Assembly: GCA_014382585.1 (NCBI GenBank)
Contig: JACNJL010000044.1
Coordinates: 1-64,000 of the forward strand
Direction: 5' to 3'
DNA: 64,000 bases
Origin: Limisphaerales bacterium
Lineage (GTDB): Bacteria > Verrucomicrobiota > Verrucomicrobiia > Limisphaerales > UBA1100
The notes beneath the pieces are model-generated. The model ran no database searches. It had not been told where the DNA came from and was given only the letters and a program-made list of their open reading frames with translations. This document shows, one piece after another, positions 8,846-30,660 of this stretch. Position numbers and translations under genes: made by a program. Position 1 is the first letter of the stretch; the number at the start of each line of letters is the position of its first letter.

Positions 8846-8875
8846 AAGAGAATATCCGACGTCCTTTCCCCCGAC

Positions 8876-19132: not shown

Positions 19133-19869
19133 ACCGACTCCGCTTCACCCTGCTCCTTTGCCTGAGCCTCGGCACGGTGGCCGCCGCCCGAGAATTGCCG
19201 CCCGCTTATTTTCTGATTGGTAACTCGCTCACGTGGGATACGGTGCCCGCGCGGATTGATGGCGATGTGCAATGGCATGTCGACTGCGGCAAACCGATCG
19301 CATACATCCACGCGCATCCCGAGAAGCCGTGCGTCAAGACCTCCACGCTTTGGCCCAAGGCGCTGAAGGCTAAGCAATACACCTTTCTGTCCGTGCAACC
19401 ACATTACGATGCCTCGGTGGCTTCGGCGGCGGAGGCGATTGGCCATTGGATTCGGCTGCAGCCCAACGCCATCGTGGTCATCCACACCGGCTGGGCGCAT
19501 CATGAAAACCGCGCTGAGGAATACGCCGCCAAGACCGCCACCGGCAAACTCGTCCATAGCGAGGCGCATTATGCGGCGTTGATGGCGCGACTGAAGAAGG
19601 AGTTTCCCAAACGCACCATTCGCTCCACGCACGCCATGCGTCTGCTGCATCAAATCGCGGCCGACATCGAGGCGGGCAAGGCGCCGTTGAAGGATGTTTC
19701 CGAGCTGCACCGCGACGCTATCCACGTCACCCTCACCGGCGGCCGTTATCTCATGCACAATTGCATGCGCCACGCGCTAAACCAACCGCGCAGCAGCAAG
19801 GGGTTTGAAAAGATCGATCCCAAACTCAAGATCTACCTGGACGGCGTGCTGGATACCCTGAAACCGTAA
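19129..19869 (+). CDS. Exported SGNH-hydrolase-like protein
   Basis: A 246-residue protein starting at the ATG that overlaps the previous stop (ATGA); the first 20 residues form a signal peptide. Just after it comes FLIGNSLTWD (Ser33), which resembles block I of SGNH/GDSL hydrolases, where GNS carries the nucleophile. A late block LHRDAIHVTLTGGRYLMH has the D-x-x-H spacing used for the catalytic Asp/His in this superfamily (D-x-IHVT). The middle is poorly recognisable. I infer a small esterase or acetylhydrolase; confidence in the enzymatic assignment is moderate. Its stop overlaps the following DUF1549/DUF1553 start by one base. Confidence 0.75.
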   Translation: MNRLRFTLLLCLSLGTVAAARELPPAYFLIGNSLTWDTVPARIDGDVQWHVDCGKPIAYIHAHPEKPCVKTSTLWPKALKAKQYTFLSVQPHYDASVASAAEAIGHWIRLQPNAIVVIHTGWAHHENRAEEYAAKTATGKLVHSEAHYAALMARLKKEFPKRTIRSTHAMRLLHQIAADIEAGKAPLKDVSELHRDAIHVTLTGGRYLMHNCMRHALNQPRSSKGFEKIDPKLKIYLDGVLDTLKP

Positions 19870-22274
19870 TGCGCCCGCTGCTCATCATCAGTATCTGCCT
19901 TACCGCATTGACCGCGTTGGCCGATCCGCACTGGTCTTTCCAACCCGTCACGCGCCCGACCACGCCGGCAGGCATGCATCCGATTGATTATTTTGTGGAG
20001 AAACAGCTTCGGGAAAAGAACCTGCAACAATCGCCGATGGCTGGACGCGAAGTCCTCCTGCGGCGGGTAACGCTCGATCTCATCGGCCTACCGCCCACGA
20101 TCAAAGAACTGGAAAACTTTCGCGCAGACAAACGCCCAACAGCCGTGGCATTGGCAGCCGTGGTGGACAGGCTATTGGCCTCGCCGCGATACGGCGAGCG
20201 GTGGGCGCAGCATTGGCTGGATGTCATTCGTTGGGCGGAAACGGTTGGCTTCGAGACGAACATCGAACGGCCAGTGGCCTGGCGTTATCGCGATTGGGTG
20301 ATTACTGCGTTCAATCAAGACCTGCCCTACGACCGATTCATTCGCGATCAACTGGCCGGCGATGTCACCGGCGCGGATGCCGCACTCGGCTTTCTGGTAT
20401 CCGGCCCCGCGCTGCAACCGGGCCAAATCGGCCGCGATGAAGAGGCCATGCGCTCGGCACGACAGGATGAACTCGATGAAGTCATCCGCACCGTGAGCCA
20501 AAGCATGCTCGGCCTCACCATCGGCTGCGCACGCTGCCATGATCATAAGTTCGATCCCATTCTGCAGAAGGATTACTATGGCATGCAGGCCGTGTTCGCC
20601 GGTCTGCGCTACGGCAACCGTCGCCTGCGCGGCACGGAAAACGACGCTTGGACCGCCAAGGTGCCTGCCGCGCGCGCGAAAGTGACGCGATTGCAAACCG
20701 AGCTAGAGGCCCTGCGCAAAGAGCACGCGCTGCGCCCGCCTTTGCTCAGTGTGCAAACGGAAACATTCGAACCCGTTTTGGCTCAATCGGTTCGAATGAA
20801 AATCGCCGCCACAGTCAATGGCGCGGCGGCCTCGATTTACGAATTCGAAGCGTGGACACCCCAAAAACAAAACGCCGCCCTGGCCTCCACCGGCGCGGTG
20901 CCCAGCGCCTCGAGCTTTGCCTTGGCCAATCAAACGCGGCATTTTGAAAACCTGACCGACGGCTCGGTCGACCGGCGTCAATCCTTTCCGTGGGTCGCCG
21001 CCAGCGCTGGGCCGGCGTGGTTCCGCATTGATTTCCCGAAACCGATGACCCTCCAAAGCATCACGTGGCACAATGGCTCCAGTGTTCCGGCGGAGTACGT
21101 AATCGAAGTGCTGCGGCCCGATGATGTGTGGCACCCCATCGCCCGCACAACCGATCGCCTGCCGCGCATGGACGACCGACGCGCTCCGGATAAGGTGAAG
21201 CTCACCGAGCTGAACGCCGACCAAGTCAAATCAATCATGGCGCACATCGGCCAGCTCCGCGCGGCGCAAGGCGAACTGAACGGGCTCAATGCTGGCCCGC
21301 AAACCTTCGCCGCCAGCTTTGCCTCCCCCGATCCCACTTGGCTGTTGCGCCGGGGTGATCCCATGCAGCGGCTGGAGAAATTGCCGCCATCAATTCCCGG
21401 CGTACTGGGCAAACTTCAGCCCAAGGATGCCACCGAACCCGCGCGACGATTGGCGCTTGCGCAGCACCTTACGCGCCCGGATCATCCGCTCACCGCCCGC
21501 GTGCTGGTGAACCGCGTGTGGCAACAGCATTTTGGTACGGGCCTCGTGGACACGCCGTCGGACTTCGGCAAGATGGGCAACGCCCCGACGCATCCGAAGT
21601 TGCTCGATTGGTTGGCCAGTGAATTTGTGCGGCAAGGCTGGTCCATCAAAAAACTGCATCGCCTAATCCTCACCTCGCGCACCTACCAACAAACCCACCG
21701 CCCCAACGCCGCGGCCGCGCGCATTGATACCGATAGCCGTCTGCTGTGGCGGTTCCCCCCGCGTCGACTGGAGGCCGAAGCGATCCGCGACTCGATGCTT
21801 TTTGTGAGCGGCAAATTAAATTTGAAAACCGGCGGGCGCGGGTTTGATTTTTTCAATCAACGCGGTGGCCTGTCCGATTATCATCCCAAGGAAACCTTCG
21901 AAGCCGATGGCTGGCGGCGCATGATTTACGCCCACAAGGTGCGCATGCAGGCGGTGGATATTTTTGGCGCATTCGATTGCCCCGACGCCGGCCAGATGAA
22001 GCCCCGCCGCACCCGGTCCATCACGCCCGTGCAATCGCTCAGCCTGCTCAACAGCCCCTTCGCCAACCGGCAGGCCGACTTCTTTGCCGGTCGCGTCCGG
22101 CGCGAAGCCGGCGACGAGATGGGCGCTCAGGTGCAACACGCCTTCCGCCTCGCCACCTCGCGCGACCCCAACCCACGGGAATTGGCCACCCTGCAAACTC
22201 TTACTGAACAGCACGGCCTCGAGCAGGCCTGCCGTGTACTGTTCAATTCCAGTTCATTCCTGATGCTCCCATGA
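19869..22274 (+). CDS. DUF1549 / discoidin-like / DUF1553 secreted protein without PSCyt1
   Basis: An 801-residue exported protein (signal peptide about 1-18). It begins directly with DUF1549 (about 35-250, with [11 protein letters not shown]) and has no N-terminal PSCyt1 haem domain, unlike the 11428 and 35029 paralogues. The linker at about 295-430 resembles an F5/8 type C (discoidin) domain: IYEFEAWTP, LTDGSVDRRQSFPWVA, FRIDFPKPMTLQSITWHNG, YVIEVLRPDDVWHPIA. DUF1553 covers about 510-795 with VLVNRVWQQHFGTGLVDTPSDFG. The start ATG overlaps the previous TAA, and the partner DUF1501 lies downstream beyond a repeat-rich 190-base gap. Confidence 0.92.
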   Translation: MRPLLIISICLTALTALADPHWSFQPVTRPTTPAGMHPIDYFVEKQLREKNLQQSPMAGREVLLRRVTLDLIGLPPTIKELENFRADKRPTAVALAAVVDRLLASPRYGERWAQHWLDVIRWAETVGFETNIERPVAWRYRDWVITAFNQDLPYDRFIRDQLAGDVTGADAALGFLVSGPALQPGQIGRDEEAMRSARQDELDEVIRTVSQSMLGLTIGCARCHDHKFDPILQKDYYGMQAVFAGLRYGNRRLRGTENDAWTAKVPAARAKVTRLQTELEALRKEHALRPPLLSVQTETFEPVLAQSVRMKIAATVNGAAASIYEFEAWTPQKQNAALASTGAVPSASSFALANQTRHFENLTDGSVDRRQSFPWVAASAGPAWFRIDFPKPMTLQSITWHNGSSVPAEYVIEVLRPDDVWHPIARTTDRLPRMDDRRAPDKVKLTELNADQVKSIMAHIGQLRAAQGELNGLNAGPQTFAASFASPDPTWLLRRGDPMQRLEKLPPSIPGVLGKLQPKDATEPARRLALAQHLTRPDHPLTARVLVNRVWQQHFGTGLVDTPSDFGKMGNAPTHPKLLDWLASEFVRQGWSIKKLHRLILTSRTYQQTHRPNAAAARIDTDSRLLWRFPPRRLEAEAIRDSMLFVSGKLNLKTGGRGFDFFNQRGGLSDYHPKETFEADGWRRMIYAHKVRMQAVDIFGAFDCPDAGQMKPRRTRSITPVQSLSLLNSPFANRQADFFAGRVRREAGDEMGAQVQHAFRLATSRDPNPRELATLQTLTEQHGLEQACRVLFNSSSFLMLP

Positions 22275-22291
22275 AACATAAAATAAAACCA

Positions 22292-22356
22292 CGGACTCGC
22301 AGGCTCGTCCCTCCAATCTGCAGCCGAAAAAATGGAGGGACGAGCCTGCGAGTCCG
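22292..22356. repeat. Perfect 24-bp inverted repeat, dispersed family
   Basis: A 24-base arm at 22292-22315 (begins CGGACTCGCAGG, ends CCCTCCA) is matched exactly in reverse complement at 22333-22356, with a 17-base loop. One arm recurs without mismatch at 25749-25772. It lies between two genes that are directly fused or overlapping in a sister module, so it looks inserted. It could act as a hairpin in the mRNA, but no T-run follows. Confidence 0.85.
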
Positions 22357-22377
22357 CCATCGAACCTGCGCGCCCAC

Positions 22378-22454
22378 GTGCTGCCGGCACCTTGCCGGCA
22401 GAAGTTTGATGAACGACGTTTACCTTCGGCCTGCCGGCGGGGCGCCGGCAGCAC
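22378..22454. repeat. Nested GC-rich palindromes (CTGCCGGC / GCCGGCAG)
   Basis: Two short hairpins, 22381-22401 and 22431-22451, each with CTGCCGGC and GCCGGCAG arms around a 5-base loop. The outer pieces GTGCTGCCGGC and GCCGGCAGCAC can also pair with each other. The block ends 10 bases before the DUF1501 start and could hide or expose it. It may be a second dispersed repeat type; only one locus is visible here. Confidence 0.6.
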
Positions 22455-22464
22455 AAGTTCTCTC

Positions 22465-23889
22465 ATGACTAATCGCCGACAGTTTTTGATGCAGTCCATG
22501 CACGGGTTTTCCGGCGTGGCGTTGGCGGCGATGTTGGCCGAGGAAGGCCGCGCGGAAGGGCCGCGCATTGACGCCACGCGTCCCTATGCGCCGCGCCCTA
22601 CGCATTTTGCGCCCAAGGCCAAGCGGGTGATCGAGGTATTTTGCTCCGGCGCGTTGAGCCATGTGGACACCTTCGATTTCAAGCCGGAACTGATCAAGCA
22701 CCACGGCCAACCCTTGCCCGGCAACGATCGGCTGGTGTCGTTTCAGGGGCCGAACGGCAATCTCACCAAGCCCTTGTGGGACTTCAAACCGCGCGGTCAA
22801 TGCGGCAAGCCGGTCAGCGATCTTGTGCCGCACATTGGCGAGCTGGCGGATGAGCTGTGCTTTTTCCATTCGCTCACCAATAAATCCAACACGCACGGTC
22901 CGGCGGAGAATTTCATGAACACCGGGTTCGTCTTCGACGGCTTCCCGAGCATGGGCGCGTGGATCAATTACGCGCTCGGCAGTGACAACGAAAACCTGCC
23001 CGCCTTTGTGGCCATCGAAGATCCGCGCGGCATGCCGCAGAGCGGCCCGAACAACTGGGCCAACGGATTCCTGCCCGCCGCGTTTCAAGGCACGCCCTTC
23101 AGCAGTACCAAGCCGATCCGATTCCTGAAACGGCCCGCAACTATTTCCGCCACCAAAGACAAAGCCGCGCGCGATGCCCTGCGCGTGTTGGAGCAGGAAA
23201 ATCAAAACACCTTTCCCGGCGACGCCAATCTCGCCGCGCGTATTGCCAGCTACGAACTGGCCGCCCGCATGCAGCTCACCGTGCCCGAGGCCGCCAACCT
23301 CAAAGCTGAGCCAGCGCACATTCGCAAACTGTATGGCGCGGACAGCGACGACCGGCATCAGGCTGCCTTCGCCGACAATTGCATCCTCGCCCGGCGATTG
23401 ATCGAGCGCGGCGTGCGTTTTGTGCAGCTCTTCAACGGCGCCTACGCTTCCGGCGGTCGCATCAACTGGGACGGTCATTTCAAGTTGAAGGAACAATACG
23501 ACGTGCACGGCCGCATCCTCGACCAGCCCGTCGCCGGCCTATTGCGCGACCTGAAACAACGCGGTCTGCTGGAGGACACCCTCGTGGTGTTCGCCACCGA
23601 GTTCGGTCGCATGCCGATGTTTCAGGCTGGCACCTACGGGCGCGACCATAACCCGCACGGCTTCACCGCCTGGCTGGCCGGTGCCGGCGTGAAAGGCGGC
23701 ATGAGCTACGGAGCCACCGACGAGTTTGGCTTCAAGGCACAGCGTAACGTCATCACCCCGCACGATTTCCACGCCACCATCCTGCACCTGCTTGGCCTCG
23801 ATCACGAACGCCTCACCGTCTACCACAACGGCATCCAACGCCGCCTCACCGACGTCCACGGGCACGTGATCAAAGAGGTGCTAACGTAG
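22465..23889 (+). CDS. DUF1501 protein
   Basis: A 474-residue DUF1501 member. It starts [17 protein letters not shown], a twin-arginine-type leader; the upstream in-frame ATG at 22378 would translate the palindromes and is rejected. Core blocks: [15 protein letters not shown] near residue 60, [18 protein letters not shown] near 308, [12 protein letters not shown] near 376, [21 protein letters not shown], and [18 protein letters not shown], closing with [13 protein letters not shown]. It is close to the 38258 copy in both order and wording of the blocks. Its presumed partner is the DUF1549/DUF1553 protein at 19869. Confidence 0.92.
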
Positions 23890-25185: not shown

Positions 25186-25737
25186 CTACTTGTTCGGAAA
25201 TCGCTCATCAACAATCTTCGCATCTTCGGGAAGGCGAATGCGATTGAGGTCCACAATCTTGCCGTCGATCACGAGCTCAATGGCGTGGAGGGTGCAGTCT
25301 TTGAAATAGACACCCGGCGTCTTTGAGAAATCGGTTTGCTCAGGCTTCACTTTCGCGGGCGGGTTGCCGGCGGCCTTGGACCACGTAAACAGTCGGATGC
25401 CGGCGGTTTTGTTTTTGGCCGGACGCGTGTCCAAAACCCTCACGTGCGGCCCGCGCTTGAGGGTGAGGGGCACCTCCTTGGGGCGCAGCTTCAGGAGATG
25501 CGGCCACATGGCCTCGAATTGCTCGCGATCCTTGAAGGTGATTTCAAAGCTGTTGTAGGCTTTGCCTTCATGAATGCGGCCATGGCTCCAGGTCCAGGCC
25601 TGTTTGCGGAGTGGATCCAACTCCTTGGGCCAATCTTGCGGCCACCACCCGCCCGGTCCGCCCAAAGAAAGGGCCTGAGCCACCGGACTCAGCGCGAGCA
25701 TGCCGATGGCGAGGGTGATGAGGCGGAATAGTTTCAT
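25186..25737 (-). CDS. Exported protein of unknown function
   Basis: A 183-residue protein starting MKLFRLITLAIGMLALSPVAQA, a convincing signal peptide; longer in-frame starts would translate the dispersed repeat at 25749 and are rejected. The mature part is rich in tryptophan and charged residues (GGWWPQDWPKELDPLRKQAW, EQFEAMWPHLLKL). It ends in a beta-rich part (HAIELVIDGKIVDLNRIRLP). I do not recognise the family. It is transcribed divergently from the DUF1592-type gene and converges on the propeller lipoprotein. No catalytic motif is visible. Confidence 0.7.
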   Translation of the reverse strand: MKLFRLITLAIGMLALSPVAQALSLGGPGGWWPQDWPKELDPLRKQAWTWSHGRIHEGKAYNSFEITFKDREQFEAMWPHLLKLRPKEVPLTLKRGPHVRVLDTRPAKNKTAGIRLFTWSKAAGNPPAKVKPEQTDFSKTPGVYFKDCTLHAIELVIDGKIVDLNRIRLPEDAKIVDERFPNK

Positions 25738-25748
25738 GAAGAGTTTGA

Positions 25749-25772
25749 CGGACTCGCAGGCTCGTCCCTCCA
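25749..25772. repeat. Single arm of the dispersed 24-bp repeat
   Basis: Identical over all 24 bases to the left arm of the inverted repeat at 22292-22315. It lies in the divergent intergenic gap between 25737 and 25838. No opposing arm is found nearby. Confidence 0.85.
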
Positions 25773-25837
25773 TTGTGTGATAGTTGGAGATTGGAAAGTT
25801 CGCCGAATTTCGTATCATGGCGGCGCTAAAAATTGGC

Positions 25838-27787
25838 ATGCGGCGCGTAATTTTTCATTTTGTTTTTCTCGCCTCCCTCGGCTGGGCTGGGGCGGTGGAA
25901 TTGCCTGAGGTGGCGGAGGTGTTGAGGGCGCGGTGCATGGATTGTCATGACTGCGAGACGAGCAAGGGCGGTGTGAATTTGGAGGCGCTGCTGGCGGCAA
26001 CGGATTTTCGGGAGAAAGAAAACGCCAAGATCTGGCTAAAGGTGGATCACATGGTGGCCACGGGCGAGATGCCGCCTAAAAAAAAGAAGCCGCTCACCGC
26101 CCCGGAAAAGGCGGTGATCACCGGCTGGTTCTCGGAAGCGTTTGTGTTGAAGGACGGACGCGAACACATCGGGGCCACACCGCTGCGTCGACTGACGCGT
26201 TATGAGCTGATCAACACGCTGGAGGATTTGCTGCACGTGAACCTCAAGCCCGCGTATGTGTATAGTCCGGAAGTCCCGGCGCTGTTGCCCTCCACGCTGG
26301 AAACTCTGCTGCCGGCCGATGCGCCGGGCGAATCGGGTTTCACCAACGACGCCGCTCAACAGGCCGGCACCCCGCCGCCGATCCTGAAGCTCAGCGCGGC
26401 ATTCGATTTTGCGCTGAAGACTTTTGCGAAAGATCAGGAGGCACGCGCGAAGGTGTTTGGAATGAAAGTGATCCCGGCGGATTTGCCGGATGCCGAGGCG
26501 CGAGAGATTCTGCTGCGCTTCACACGCCGGGCGTGGCGGGGCTATCCCAATGCCGCCAACGAAGCGGTCGTGTGGCGCGCCTACCAAACCCAGCGCCAAG
26601 ACGCCGCGCCGCAGGCGGCGTTGCTGCACGCGATGAAGATCGCCCTCCTTTCGCCGGCGTTTATTTACCGGATGGAGATGGTGCAAAACCGGCCGCTGCC
26701 TTACGCCGTGAACGATCGGGAATTGGCCAATCGTCTGAGTTATTTTCTTTGGGCCAGCCCGCCCGATGACGAATTGATCCGCAAAGCCGACCGCGGCGAA
26801 CTGCGCCGGCCGGACGTGCTCGCCGCTCAGGTGGATCGTCTGTTGAACTCGCCGAAGCGTCTGGCGTTGGCGGAAGATTTCGCCGGACAATGGCTGGGCT
26901 TTACCGATCTCGTGGACAACCGCGTGTTTTACCAGAACGAAAACTGGAACCGCGGCGTGTACGATGAGGCCCTGTTTTTCTTTGATGAATTGGTGAAATC
27001 GGACCGGCCGATTCTGGATCTCATCGATTCGAACTGGGTGTACCAGAGCAACTACACCGGCGTGCGCACGGCCGGCGGCGGGCATGCGTTTGAGGCGAAG
27101 TACGCGGATATTTTCGACTGGCGCCGTCAACGGCCGGGCGGCATTCGCGAGCGATTTTATGAACCGCCGCGCTTAATCAAAATCAACAGCGACCAGCGCG
27201 GCGGACTGATCACGTCCGTCGGCATTCTGCGGGTCACCTCCGCGCCCGATCGCACCAACCCCATCCGACGCGGCGTGTGGCTGCTGGACAAGGTGCTCGG
27301 CCGGCAACTACACGCGCCGGAAAACATTCCCGCCCTCAGCCAAAGCGAGCGCGTGAATGGCAAGAAACTCGAGGATCTCGCCGACATCATGAAGGCCCAC
27401 GCCAGCAAAGCCATTTGCGTGAGCTGCCATCAGCACATCGACCCGCTCGGGTTGGGTCTGGAGAATTTCGATCCCTTTGGCAAATGGCGGACCACCTATC
27501 CCAACCGCCGACCGGTGAAGAGCGACGGCGCCTTCCCCAACGGCGCGGCCTTCAACACGCCGCGGGCGATGAAACAAATTTTGCTGAAAGATTACCGCGA
27601 ACCCATCGTCCGAAATTTCACGAAACGCCTGCTGGCCTACGCCATCGGCCGCAAGCTCAAGCCGCACGATCGGCCGGCCGTGGACCGAATTTGCGCGGCC
27701 CTTGCGGCGGACGGCAATAAAATGAACACCTTGATCCGCGGCATTATCGCCAGCCCGCAGTTTCAACAACGACAAGACGCACCATGA
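25838..27787 (+). CDS. PSCyt-type protein: DUF1587/DUF1595/DUF1592/DUF1588/DUF1585
   Basis: A 649-residue exported protein (signal peptide about 1-19). It opens with a CxxCH motif (C33, C36, H37, CMDCHDC). DUF1587 follows (TPLRRLTRYELINTLEDLL, near 120), then DUF1595 (FTRRAWRGYPNAANE, near 230), DUF1592 (LSPAFIYRME ... LANRLSYFLWASPPDDEL, near 275-330), and DUF1588 (GLITSVGILRVTSAPDRTNP, with CVSCHQHIDPLGLGLENFD, a second CxxCH). DUF1585 closes (FTKRLLAYAIGRKLKP). This is the standard order for this second class of planctomycete cytochromes. Starts at 25817 or 25838 are both possible; the latter gives the cleaner signal peptide. It overlaps the DUF1552 gene by four bases (ATGA). Confidence 0.92.
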   Translation: MRRVIFHFVFLASLGWAGAVELPEVAEVLRARCMDCHDCETSKGGVNLEALLAATDFREKENAKIWLKVDHMVATGEMPPKKKKPLTAPEKAVITGWFSEAFVLKDGREHIGATPLRRLTRYELINTLEDLLHVNLKPAYVYSPEVPALLPSTLETLLPADAPGESGFTNDAAQQAGTPPPILKLSAAFDFALKTFAKDQEARAKVFGMKVIPADLPDAEAREILLRFTRRAWRGYPNAANEAVVWRAYQTQRQDAAPQAALLHAMKIALLSPAFIYRMEMVQNRPLPYAVNDRELANRLSYFLWASPPDDELIRKADRGELRRPDVLAAQVDRLLNSPKRLALAEDFAGQWLGFTDLVDNRVFYQNENWNRGVYDEALFFFDELVKSDRPILDLIDSNWVYQSNYTGVRTAGGGHAFEAKYADIFDWRRQRPGGIRERFYEPPRLIKINSDQRGGLITSVGILRVTSAPDRTNPIRRGVWLLDKVLGRQLHAPENIPALSQSERVNGKKLEDLADIMKAHASKAICVSCHQHIDPLGLGLENFDPFGKWRTTYPNRRPVKSDGAFPNGAAFNTPRAMKQILLKDYREPIVRNFTKRLLAYAIGRKLKPHDRPAVDRICAALAADGNKMNTLIRGIIASPQFQQRQDAP

Positions 27788-29379
27788 GCAAGTCATCCTA
27801 CCTCATCCCGCGCCGCACCTTTTTGCGCGGCATCGGCGCCACGCTGGCCCTGCCGGCGCTGGAGATCATGTCGCCCGCCCTCAGCCACGCCAAGACCGCC
27901 AAGCCCAAGCGCCCCGTGCGCCTGGCTGTGCTCTTCAAGGGCGCGGGCGTGAACCCTACCTCATGGGATATCACCGGCGCCACGGAAACGGAGTTCACCC
28001 TCTCGCGCCTATTGCAGCCGCTGGAGAAAAACAAAAAGGACATCGTCGTCCTGCGCAATATCGACACCGACCAGCGCGCCAATGGCGGCCACGAGAATGT
28101 GACCGTCACCTTCATGACCGGCCGCACGCGCAAGAGCCGGCTGGAACAATGGCAATCGTTTGATCAAGTGATCGCCGATGAGGTCGGCCGCACGACGCCC
28201 GTGAAATCGCTCGCGCTACGCAGTGACACGTATCTCGATCACAAGGATCCCGCTGAGAACTTCATTTCCTACGGCACCGATGGCAGTCCCCTACCCGTCG
28301 AGGCCAAACCGGAGGTGGTATTCAACCGTTTGTTCAAGGGCTTTCACAACAGCGACTTTCGCCAGCGCACCACGAGCGTGTTAGATGAAGTGAAAGACAG
28401 CTACGCCGCCATTGCCCGCAAGGCCAGCCGGCGCGATCAACAGGTGCTCGAGCAGTATCTGCAATCTGTACGCGAGGTGGAGCGCGATATCGAGCAGTTC
28501 AGCACACAAGGCAACGCCGCGCGCGATGCCAAGCTGCGGAAGATCCAGCCCGTGCCGGCCGTCAATAATCTCGCCGAACGCACCGCCGCCATGCTCGACC
28601 TAATGGCGCTGGCCTTCTGGACGGACATGACCCGCGTAAGCACGCTGATGATGGCGCACACTGAGAGCCGGTCCACCTTCGAGTTTCTCGGCATCAATGA
28701 CGAGCTGCACATGCTTTCGCACTTTGTGCGCACGCGCAACCGCTCCTCCGGCTTGGACGGCTACGACCGCATCAACCGCTGGTACATCAGCCAGTTCGCG
28801 CGGTTCATCAACCGCCTCAAGGCATTGCCCGACACCGAGGGCACCGTGTTCGACAACAGCGCCGTGCTCTTCGGCTCGGGCATCAAACACGGCGATTATC
28901 ATTCCGTCACCGATCTCCCCCTCGTGCTGGCCGGCGGCGGCGGCGGGCAAATCCAGCCGGGGCGGTACGTGGAATATCCCAACGTGCCCAACGGCAATTT
29001 GCATTTGAAGCTCATGCAGATCATGGGTGTGCACCGCGATCAATACGGCAACTCCACCGGCGTGTTGCCGGGCATCTCGGAGAAAGCCAACCTCGCACCG
29101 CGTTACGTGGATGACGGCTCGTGGAAAATCACCACCGATGCCGGCAACAAGATCGCGCTCAAGGGCCTGCTGAAGATCAGCGTGAAAGCCGATGACCTGA
29201 ACCATTATCTGGTGCAACTCTCCGGCGGCAAGGAACTCGACATCCGCCCGAGTTTTGGCAATGTCCACAGCACTCGCCTCGACGCCAGCGTCGGCTCCGT
29301 CGTCCAGCTCGAAGGCGAAACCAGCGTCAAAGACGGCCACAAAACCATCACCAAGATCACTCGCATCAAGCGTCTGTAA
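27784..29379 (+). CDS. DUF1552 (HXXSHH family) protein with twin-arginine leader
   Basis: A 531-residue protein; the leader IPRRTFLRGIGATLALPALE is twin-arginine-like. It matches DUF1552, the constant partner of the DUF1592-type cytochrome. Blocks include LFKGAGVNPTSWD near residue 48, NGGHENVTVTFMTGR near 100, TSVLDEVKDSY, and LHMLSHFVRTRN, the place of the HxxSHH signature (here HMLSHF, so the final histidine is replaced). GSGIKHGDYHS and PLVLAGGGGG follow. The last 100 residues (KITTDAGNKIALKGLLKI onward) are an extra beta-rich tail. It probably acts in the periplasm with the gene at 25838. Function unknown. Confidence 0.9.
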   Translation: MSKSSYLIPRRTFLRGIGATLALPALEIMSPALSHAKTAKPKRPVRLAVLFKGAGVNPTSWDITGATETEFTLSRLLQPLEKNKKDIVVLRNIDTDQRANGGHENVTVTFMTGRTRKSRLEQWQSFDQVIADEVGRTTPVKSLALRSDTYLDHKDPAENFISYGTDGSPLPVEAKPEVVFNRLFKGFHNSDFRQRTTSVLDEVKDSYAAIARKASRRDQQVLEQYLQSVREVERDIEQFSTQGNAARDAKLRKIQPVPAVNNLAERTAAMLDLMALAFWTDMTRVSTLMMAHTESRSTFEFLGINDELHMLSHFVRTRNRSSGLDGYDRINRWYISQFARFINRLKALPDTEGTVFDNSAVLFGSGIKHGDYHSVTDLPLVLAGGGGGQIQPGRYVEYPNVPNGNLHLKLMQIMGVHRDQYGNSTGVLPGISEKANLAPRYVDDGSWKITTDAGNKIALKGLLKISVKADDLNHYLVQLSGGKELDIRPSFGNVHSTRLDASVGSVVQLEGETSVKDGHKTITKITRIKRL

Positions 29380-29474
29380 ATGAAAACCCTGCTCGCCCTT
29401 CTCCTCACCACCGTCGGCCTCCTTGCCGTCTCGCCGACGTCCACGGGCATGTGATTAAAGAAATCCTCCCCTGA
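29380..29474 (+). pseudogene. Deletion scar: signal-peptide start joined to a DUF1501 3' end
   Basis: An ATG at 29380 begins MKTLLALLLTTVGLLAV, a fine signal peptide, but the frame ends after 24 codons at 29454. In another frame 29433-29474 reads [13 protein letters not shown] and stop, the C-terminal signature of the DUF1501 genes that end at 10360, 23889 and 39715. So the 5' end of one exported-protein gene seems to have been joined to the last codons of a lost DUF1501 gene. This is probably the mark of a deletion between module members. Confidence 0.7.
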
Positions 29475-29497
29475 TTTTTTAACAAAAAAATTTACGC

Positions 29498-29525
29498 TTG
29501 AACCCGCACGACCACTCTTTAGGTT
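29498..29525 (+). promoter_or_regulatory. Candidate leaderless promoter of the 29536 gene
   Basis: TTGAAC (29498-29503), 16-base spacer, TAGGTT (29520-29525), then 10 bases to the ATG at 29536. It lies just after the DUF1501 remnant in AT-rich sequence. Confidence 0.48.
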
Positions 29526-29535
29526 AGCCGTTCCC

Positions 29536-30660
29536 ATGAAAATTAAACAGGTCATTTGTCAGGTGCTACGGTTGGAGTCGGTGGAAAATAAAACCGCGAG
29601 CAGCCAAGATGCCGTGATTGTGCGAATCCGCACGGACACGGGACTCGAAGGTGTGGGCGAGGCAGACTCGTCCCCGGAAGTAGTAAAGGCCATCATCGAT
29701 GCACCCTTCAGCCACAATGTCGCGTGTGGATTACGCGAAATGTTGCTCGGCGAAAACCCGCTGGAGACCGACCGACTTTGGCAGAAGCTCCATCGCGGCT
29801 CGCAATATTTCGGGCGCTCATCGGTCACCCTGTCAGCCATCAGCGCGATTGACTTGGCCTTGTGGGATCTCAAAGGCAAACATTTTGGCGAACCAATCCA
29901 CCGACTGCTCGGCGGCAAACGCCACAACAAAATCCGCGCCTATGCATCCATCCTTTTTGGGAGCGATGGCGCAGAGACTGCGGACATCGGCCGACGCTGG
30001 ATTGAAGCTGGCTACACCGCGGTGAAATTTGGATGGGAACCGATGGGCGAAAGCGAAGCGGTGGACCTGGATCTTGTGCGCGGCGCGCGCGAAGGCATCG
30101 GCGAAGACGCCACACTGCTCATCGACGCCGGCTGCGTATGGGATGCCCGCACCGCCCTACGCCGGGCCGAACGGTTTGCCCAGTACAATCCCGAATGGCT
30201 GGAAGAGGCGCTTCAACAGGCAGACATCGACGGCTACCGTTGGTTGCGCGACCGCTCACCCGTACCCATCGCGGCCGGAGAGGGCGAGTGCGGAGCGGAA
30301 TCGTTCCGGGCACTCATTGACCGGCACGCGCTGGATGTTTATCAAGTCGATCTATCACGCAACGGCTTCACCGATGCCAGCTACATCCGCCGCCGCGTGG
30401 AAGAGATTGGTGCGCGCCTGTGCAACCACTGCTACACCAGCCCCATCACCCACGCCGCCAGCGCCCATTGGCTCTCCACCTGCCGCGACGCGTTTTTGTT
30501 TGAAGATTGTGTAGAAGATTCCGCGCTCCGGCACGAGTTAACCCACGAGAAAATCCAGGCCAAAGATGGCTGGCTGCACGTCCCCGACCGCCCCGGCCTC
30601 GGCATCACTCTTAACGAGGAATTCATCAGCCAATACCTCGTCTCCGAATCGGGCGCATAA
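29536..30660 (+). CDS. Mandelate racemase / muconate lactonizing enzyme family protein
   Basis: A 374-residue cytoplasmic enolase-superfamily enzyme. The N-terminal capping domain is followed by the barrel with metal ligands in LLIDAGCVWD (D197), NPEWLEEAL (E223 or E224) and IAAGEGE (near 249). VKFGWE supplies a lysine at the second-strand position, and RLCNHCYTSP places a histidine late in the barrel. This set suits abstraction of a proton next to a carboxylate, as in sugar-acid dehydratases or racemases. The following symporter and creatininase genes suggest uptake and breakdown of one organic acid or glycan derivative. The exact substrate cannot be deduced. Confidence 0.9.
   Translation: MKIKQVICQVLRLESVENKTASSQDAVIVRIRTDTGLEGVGEADSSPEVVKAIIDAPFSHNVACGLREMLLGENPLETDRLWQKLHRGSQYFGRSSVTLSAISAIDLALWDLKGKHFGEPIHRLLGGKRHNKIRAYASILFGSDGAETADIGRRWIEAGYTAVKFGWEPMGESEAVDLDLVRGAREGIGEDATLLIDAGCVWDARTALRRAERFAQYNPEWLEEALQQADIDGYRWLRDRSPVPIAAGEGECGAESFRALIDRHALDVYQVDLSRNGFTDASYIRRRVEEIGARLCNHCYTSPITHAASAHWLSTCRDAFLFEDCVEDSALRHELTHEKIQAKDGWLHVPDRPGLGITLNEEFISQYLVSESGA

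Follow-up and report, generated by a model that had tools for sequence, protein, structure and literature searches.

A gene-loss scar behind a DUF1552 gene in a Limisphaerales bacterium, probably a deletion joint that retains half of a split signal peptide

The scar described here is a stretch of 95 bases (positions 29380–29474) within a window of 64,000 bases, that is, bases 1–64000 of contig 44 in the draft genome of a Limisphaerales bacterium of the Verrucomicrobiota; unless stated otherwise, all features lie on the plus strand. It stands between a DUF1552 gene and an enolase-superfamily gene, and it is probably the product of two events: a block of two genes, a PSD3-type gene and the DUF1552 gene, would have split the signal peptide of an exported xylose-isomerase-like gene (SPI), and a deletion would have fused the remainder of SPI to the end of a DUF1501 gene. 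The gene-loss relic itself is of an ordinary kind; the unusual part is the signal peptide split around a moved block.

An ATG at 29380, directly 3' of the DUF1552 stop codon, opens a frame of 24 residues (MKTLLALLLTTVGLLAVSPTSTGM*, 29380–29454), whose beginning was called a signal peptide by eye. A second frame, offset by 2, carries a DUF1501-type ending at 29433–29474. The preliminary description, in which a signal-like start runs into a DUF1501 ending in another frame, therefore matches the sequence; only its count of 14 final codons at 29433–29474 has to be changed, to 13 codons and a stop, and the homology to DUF1501 begins earlier, at 29425, giving the last 15 codons and the stop (29425–29474). 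It had also stated that the ending DVHGHV is common to three intact DUF1501 genes, and this is borne out: over the six frames of the window, the motif occurs four times, in the scar and at the ends of these three genes (10322, 23851, and 39677), and it has no match in 200 mononucleotide shuffles of the window.

The tail is identical to a DUF1501 gene of genome G004 at 44 of 50 bases, versus 38, 38, and 36 of 50 for the three intact paralogues in the window. The match to G004 extends past the stop, through a spacer of 61 bases (29475–29535) common to G004 and G005, and into the first 94 bases of the next gene (86/94), which is the intact enolase-superfamily gene (29536–30660; MR_MLE_N and MR_MLE_C by Pfam). 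Taken together, the tail, the spacer, and the enolase start (29425–29629) are 88% identical in G004 and G005, two of the 57 other genomes and both of the same genus as the window, and in both of them the same spacer and enolase-superfamily start come right after a PSD1 gene and a DUF1501 gene, both intact. The C-terminus and stop of DUF1501 (PF07394) are in register with the intact G004 orthologue; the domain body is not present in the remnant, which has only 15 codons and at whose 5' side the identity is at the level of chance. In other words, left of 29424 there is identity to the DUF1501 gene at 16 of 45 bases, a value that 22% of shuffles and 11% of the window's 45-mers also reach, and for this reason we rejected the idea that the stub is frameshifted DUF1501 sequence. 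The orthologous DUF1501 gene is found at 89–100% in G001, G003 (where a contig end cuts it), G004, and G005, all of which also have its PSD1 partner. In the window's own genome, the nearest copy is at 66%, and a search for the PSD1 partner at E ≤ 1e-150 gave nothing (41 of 84 first-look candidates scored). By this comparison, the right part of the scar is shown to be the end of a DUF1501 gene that is kept intact in sister species.

It should be mentioned that a DUF1501 match ending at most 300 bases upstream of an enolase-superfamily gene, on the same strand, was found at 8 of 80 loci of other Planctomycetes and Verrucomicrobia, so the arrangement is not limited to this genus; in G007 and G008, no DUF1501 gene precedes the enolase-superfamily genes. 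The enolase-superfamily gene is cut after about 31 codons in both G004 and G005 (L110 5323–5415; L184 7372–7491), and in G001 only its last 27–40 codons are seen.

Could the 24-codon frame be a real small gene or leader peptide? Its start codon directly after the DUF1552 stop and its hydrophobic stretch would fit such a gene, to which we nevertheless give hardly any credence, because its 3' half reads the end of DUF1501 in the wrong frame, and G004 and G005 have the same end intact in the right one. Moreover, the frame is not conserved: among the matches listed for the 57 other genomes, with few candidates each (the best eight were scored in most), none outside the window's own genome spans the joint. 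A small gene conserved in sister genomes, which had been named as the outcome that would speak against a deletion, was thus not seen. There is no sign of function in the 24-codon frame, and the scar is in all likelihood a dead deletion joint and not a gene.

An assembly error joining two places of the genome is a second explanation, and it is suggested by the state of the assembly, a 3.7-Mb draft in 70 contigs with 75 DUF1501 matches, and by the tail, which has up to 20 exact bases in common with another copy (the window and 10 loci of this genome were tested). A misjoin driven by such a repeat, however, would place DUF1501 sequence on the left as well, and none above chance is found left of 29424; the gene order on both sides also agrees with that of relatives. 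We therefore regard such an error as very improbable.

The two halves of the scar were traced to different relatives. A word search with 29371–29432 across the relatives' loci examined gave, beyond the window's own copies and besides two 14-base matches, a single match, which lies in the SPI signal peptide of G010 (23/24 bases). Positions 29405–29428 agree with the SPI signal peptide at 23/24 bases in G010, 20/24 in G013, and 21/24 in G014, the three of 20 family genomes in which SPI orthologues were found (AP_endonuc_2, PF01261, by Pfam in G014). This 24-mer is the best of the window's 127,952 24-mers against each of the three SPI starts. As a control, 230 other signal-peptide-like gene starts from the loci examined were compared, and none reaches 20/24 to G010; the best (19/24) belongs to an exported G055 gene that was included for its resemblance to the stub. 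The other short matches to the stub (one in G011 and two in G055) are the starts of unrelated genes, one of which resembles the whole stub.

The other half of the SPI start is found 3.5 kb away, on the far side of the PSD3-DUF1552 block. Positions 25780–25870 correspond to the region upstream of SPI and its first codons (77% over 105 bases in G010, 77% over 94 in G013, and 74% over 94 in G014), a segment that contains the first 11 SPI codons (ATG at 25838) and is now the start of the PSD3-type gene. When the two halves are joined with the trinucleotide CTC counted once, they give a gapless match of 50/55, 49/55, and 49/55 to the three SPI starts. In G014, the gene order is PQQ gene, SPI, creatininase-like gene, PSD1, and DUF1501, which agrees with the window around the block and provides independent positional support for the SPI assignment (the labels creatininase-like, SDR, and phyH for neighbouring genes are what we take these genes to be). 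Both the start region and the signal peptide thus match the SPI orthologues, and a search of the window's genome for the TIM-barrel body of SPI gave no match at E ≤ 1e-10 (4/4 candidates scored). From these alignments, it is well supported that the middle of the scar (29404–29428, LTTVGLLA) stems from the second half of the SPI signal peptide, with the promoter side and first half at 25780–25870. Because the SPI halves flank the block, PSD3-DUF1552 appears to have been inserted inside the SPI signal-peptide codons.

The block itself consists of the PSD3-type gene (25838–27787; PSCyt1, PSCyt3, and PSD2–PSD5 domains by Pfam) and the DUF1552 gene (27784–29379; PF07586), relocated together with it. 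Its edges are marked by CTC at 25868–25870 and at 29404–29406, so that it measures 3536 bases (25871–29406), and the PSD3-type gene has a hybrid start, MRRVIFHFVFL/ASLGWAGA, with the junction after MRRVIFHFVFL, which differs from the starts of its orthologues. In G002, G003, G012, and G018, PSD3-DUF1552 adjoins a SASA-type gene, and in G002 it lies between this gene and the equivalent of the window's DUF1501 gene at 8.9k. In the window, the SASA-type gene and this DUF1501 gene are adjacent (8845 and 8876), separated by a 30-base gap (8846–8875, without strand), and G014 has the same empty place, with 94% identity over 299 bases. In G001, the block is again 5' of the same DUF1501 gene, but after a PSD1 gene. 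The PSD3 copies with a readable start in G001, G002, G003, G012, and G018 have one common type of signal peptide, from which those of the window and G005 deviate. Judged by gene order, the DUF1552 gene at the scar is a newcomer that moved in with PSD3.

The same data bear on a simpler history, a plain deletion in place, in which the DUF1552 gene already had an exported gene beginning MKTLLALLLTTVGLLA behind it and this beginning was fused to the DUF1501 end, so that the scar needs no insertion into SPI. Comparable whole signal peptides do occur in unrelated genes (MKTLLTLLTTLGLL and MKTSLLALLLTAVLL in G055; MKTLRALLIL in G011). Three observations are left unexplained by it, however: the SPI upstream region and first half at the block's other edge, the gapless SPI match of the joined halves, and the neighbours equal to the flanking genes of SPI in G014. 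We consider a plain deletion unlikely, and the split of SPI by PSD3-DUF1552, with a deletion fusing it to the DUF1501 end, remains the probable explanation. Several points weigh against it. SPI turned up in no genome of the window's genus, its three carriers all belonging to another genus of the family; no genome examined has PSD3-DUF1552 inside a complete SPI gene, and none examined has SPI followed by the PSD1-DUF1501 pair; the negative result for the PSD1 partner in the window's genome covers 41 of 84 candidates; the start MKTLLTLLTTLGLL of an unrelated exported G055 gene reaches 19/24, so signal-peptide DNA can converge; and the assembly is a draft.

Events probably took the following course. 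The PSD3-DUF1552 block, bounded by CTC on either side, would have landed within the SPI signal-peptide codons, and the PSD3-type gene now has the start region of SPI and a signal peptide that is hybrid and in frame. A deletion would have run from just past the SPI signal peptide to the last DUF1501 codons, joined at GCCG (29425–29428), which is common to the SPI start and the DUF1501 tail, and would have taken away the SPI body, probably also a PSD1 gene, and the DUF1501 gene except for its final 15 codons. Either the insertion or the deletion may have come first, and we infer the length of the deletion. A deletion of this kind, with loss of the central part of an exported-protein gene and of nearly a whole DUF1501 gene, had already been proposed, and it remains the best reading, in agreement with the intact DUF1501 gene in G004 and G005 and with the matching signal-peptide gene in three relatives; we would add that it probably took a whole PSD1 gene as well. 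The preliminary description had further expected sister genomes to hold an intact signal-peptide gene and DUF1501 gene between DUF1552 and the enolase-superfamily gene: the order of DUF1501 and the enolase-superfamily gene was found, but no sister has both genes at that place.

How did the block enter? When the end of the block (29380–29406) is joined to its start (25871 onward), an in-frame signal peptide results (MKTLLALLLASLGWAGA, reading MKTLLALLLASLGWAGAVELPEV), which resembles the PSD3 start of G005 (MKTTLMALLAFWGGLALAGAD); 3 of 123 control starts score at least as well, one of them being the G005 start itself. The first part of the stub (29380–29403, MKTLLALL) is thus possibly the block's own PSD3 signal-peptide start, displaced by circular permutation, and the similar starts in unrelated genes count against this. 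The joined ends fit an entry of the block as a circle, through one crossover within signal-peptide codons, which we put forward as a lead. More broadly, it is conceivable, though we hold it only tentatively, that blocks of exported-protein genes move as circles that integrate by crossover inside signal-peptide codons, the entry of PSD3-DUF1552 into SPI being one such event. If so, the crossover keeps both partners in frame and swaps promoters and signal peptides in one step, and since both partners stay in frame, the host gene could survive the insertion.

About 40 bases past the relocated DUF1552 gene of G005 comes a broken exported frame, MRTFFYLLIFNFITAGITAQAASYTPRQVS (L111 9972–10110). Given its deviant PSD3 signal peptide and this broken frame soon after DUF1552, the G005 copy may represent a second event of the same kind. 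PSD1a, the gene that follows DUF1552 in G015 and G018, was rejected as the origin of the G005 stub: G005 keeps PSD1a intact elsewhere, and its stub is therefore not a PSD1a remnant. A source for the G005 PSD3 signal peptide was not found among the loci examined. As a source of the window's stub, PSD1a was set aside after no match to it appeared in the window's genome at E ≤ 1e-120 (42 of 109 candidates scored), and the PSD1 of the sister pair was set aside for starts (MNRLGIILIF and MQRLGASLIF) unlike the stub. A border repeat, TTAGACTGACCCG, near two G005 breakpoints was also discarded (7 matches in 7 genus genomes versus 18 for the reversed control).

A palindromic repeat resembling repetitive extragenic palindromes (REP-like), GACTCGCAGGCTCGTCCCTCC, often with a nearby inverted copy, occurs in full at 22294–22354 and as a half, a lone arm immediately to the left of the SPI remnant, at 25751–25771. 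Its arms, with at most 2 mismatches, number 88 in the window's genome, 97 in G004, 15 in G005, and 15 in G006, with zero in G001–G003 and zero for the reversed control. On the minus strand, a frame of 217 codons (25186–25839) has no Pfam match; together with the lone arm, it occupies about 25250–25779, a stretch absent in G014 between the PQQ and SPI genes. In G005, a 96-base repeat upstream of PSD3 recurs elsewhere in that genome. Farther upstream, 3' of an abhydrolase gene (18.1k), the PSD1-DUF1501 pairs vary between genomes (19869–23889; L183 1212–5653): the 19k/22k pair occupies this slot in the window and G015, its PSD1 is found in G018 (where the locus ends), and the sister pair is found in G001 and G003, as if one pair could take the place of another there.

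A single genome can contain many copies of Planctomycete-type cytochrome, DUF1501, and DUF1552 genes, and this locus gives a close look at their spread and decay. It fixes the breakpoints almost to the base and suggests a route, exchange within short and forgiving signal-peptide codons; if the route recurs, freshly moved blocks of exported genes should carry foreign promoters and signal peptides.

In Campbell-type integration, a circle enters by one crossover. Such an event would leave permuted ends like those at the locus, with the host start and the rest of the block on the left and the block start and the rest of the host on the right; the locus differs in that only about 3 bases are shared, the assignment of the stub's first 24 bases to PSD3 is not firm, and no circle or recombinase was seen, although neither was searched for. 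Gene-loss scars form by deletion at short shared sequences, and here, too, two fragments in different frames meet at a joint of a few shared bases; unlike in such scars, the left fragment is itself split by an inserted two-gene block. Among the titles listed in literature searches, none concerned natural signal-peptide exchange or loss of these modules, which is no proof of absence. PSCyt/PSD gene pairs have been described from lake Verrucomicrobia (PMC5615132). Section 13 of that paper names neither DUF1501 nor DUF1552, whose identification comes from the present analysis, and says nothing on insertion, loss, or scars. The pairing it describes is likewise seen in the window, where the PSCyt2/PSD1 genes stand with DUF1501 and the PSCyt3 gene stands with DUF1552.
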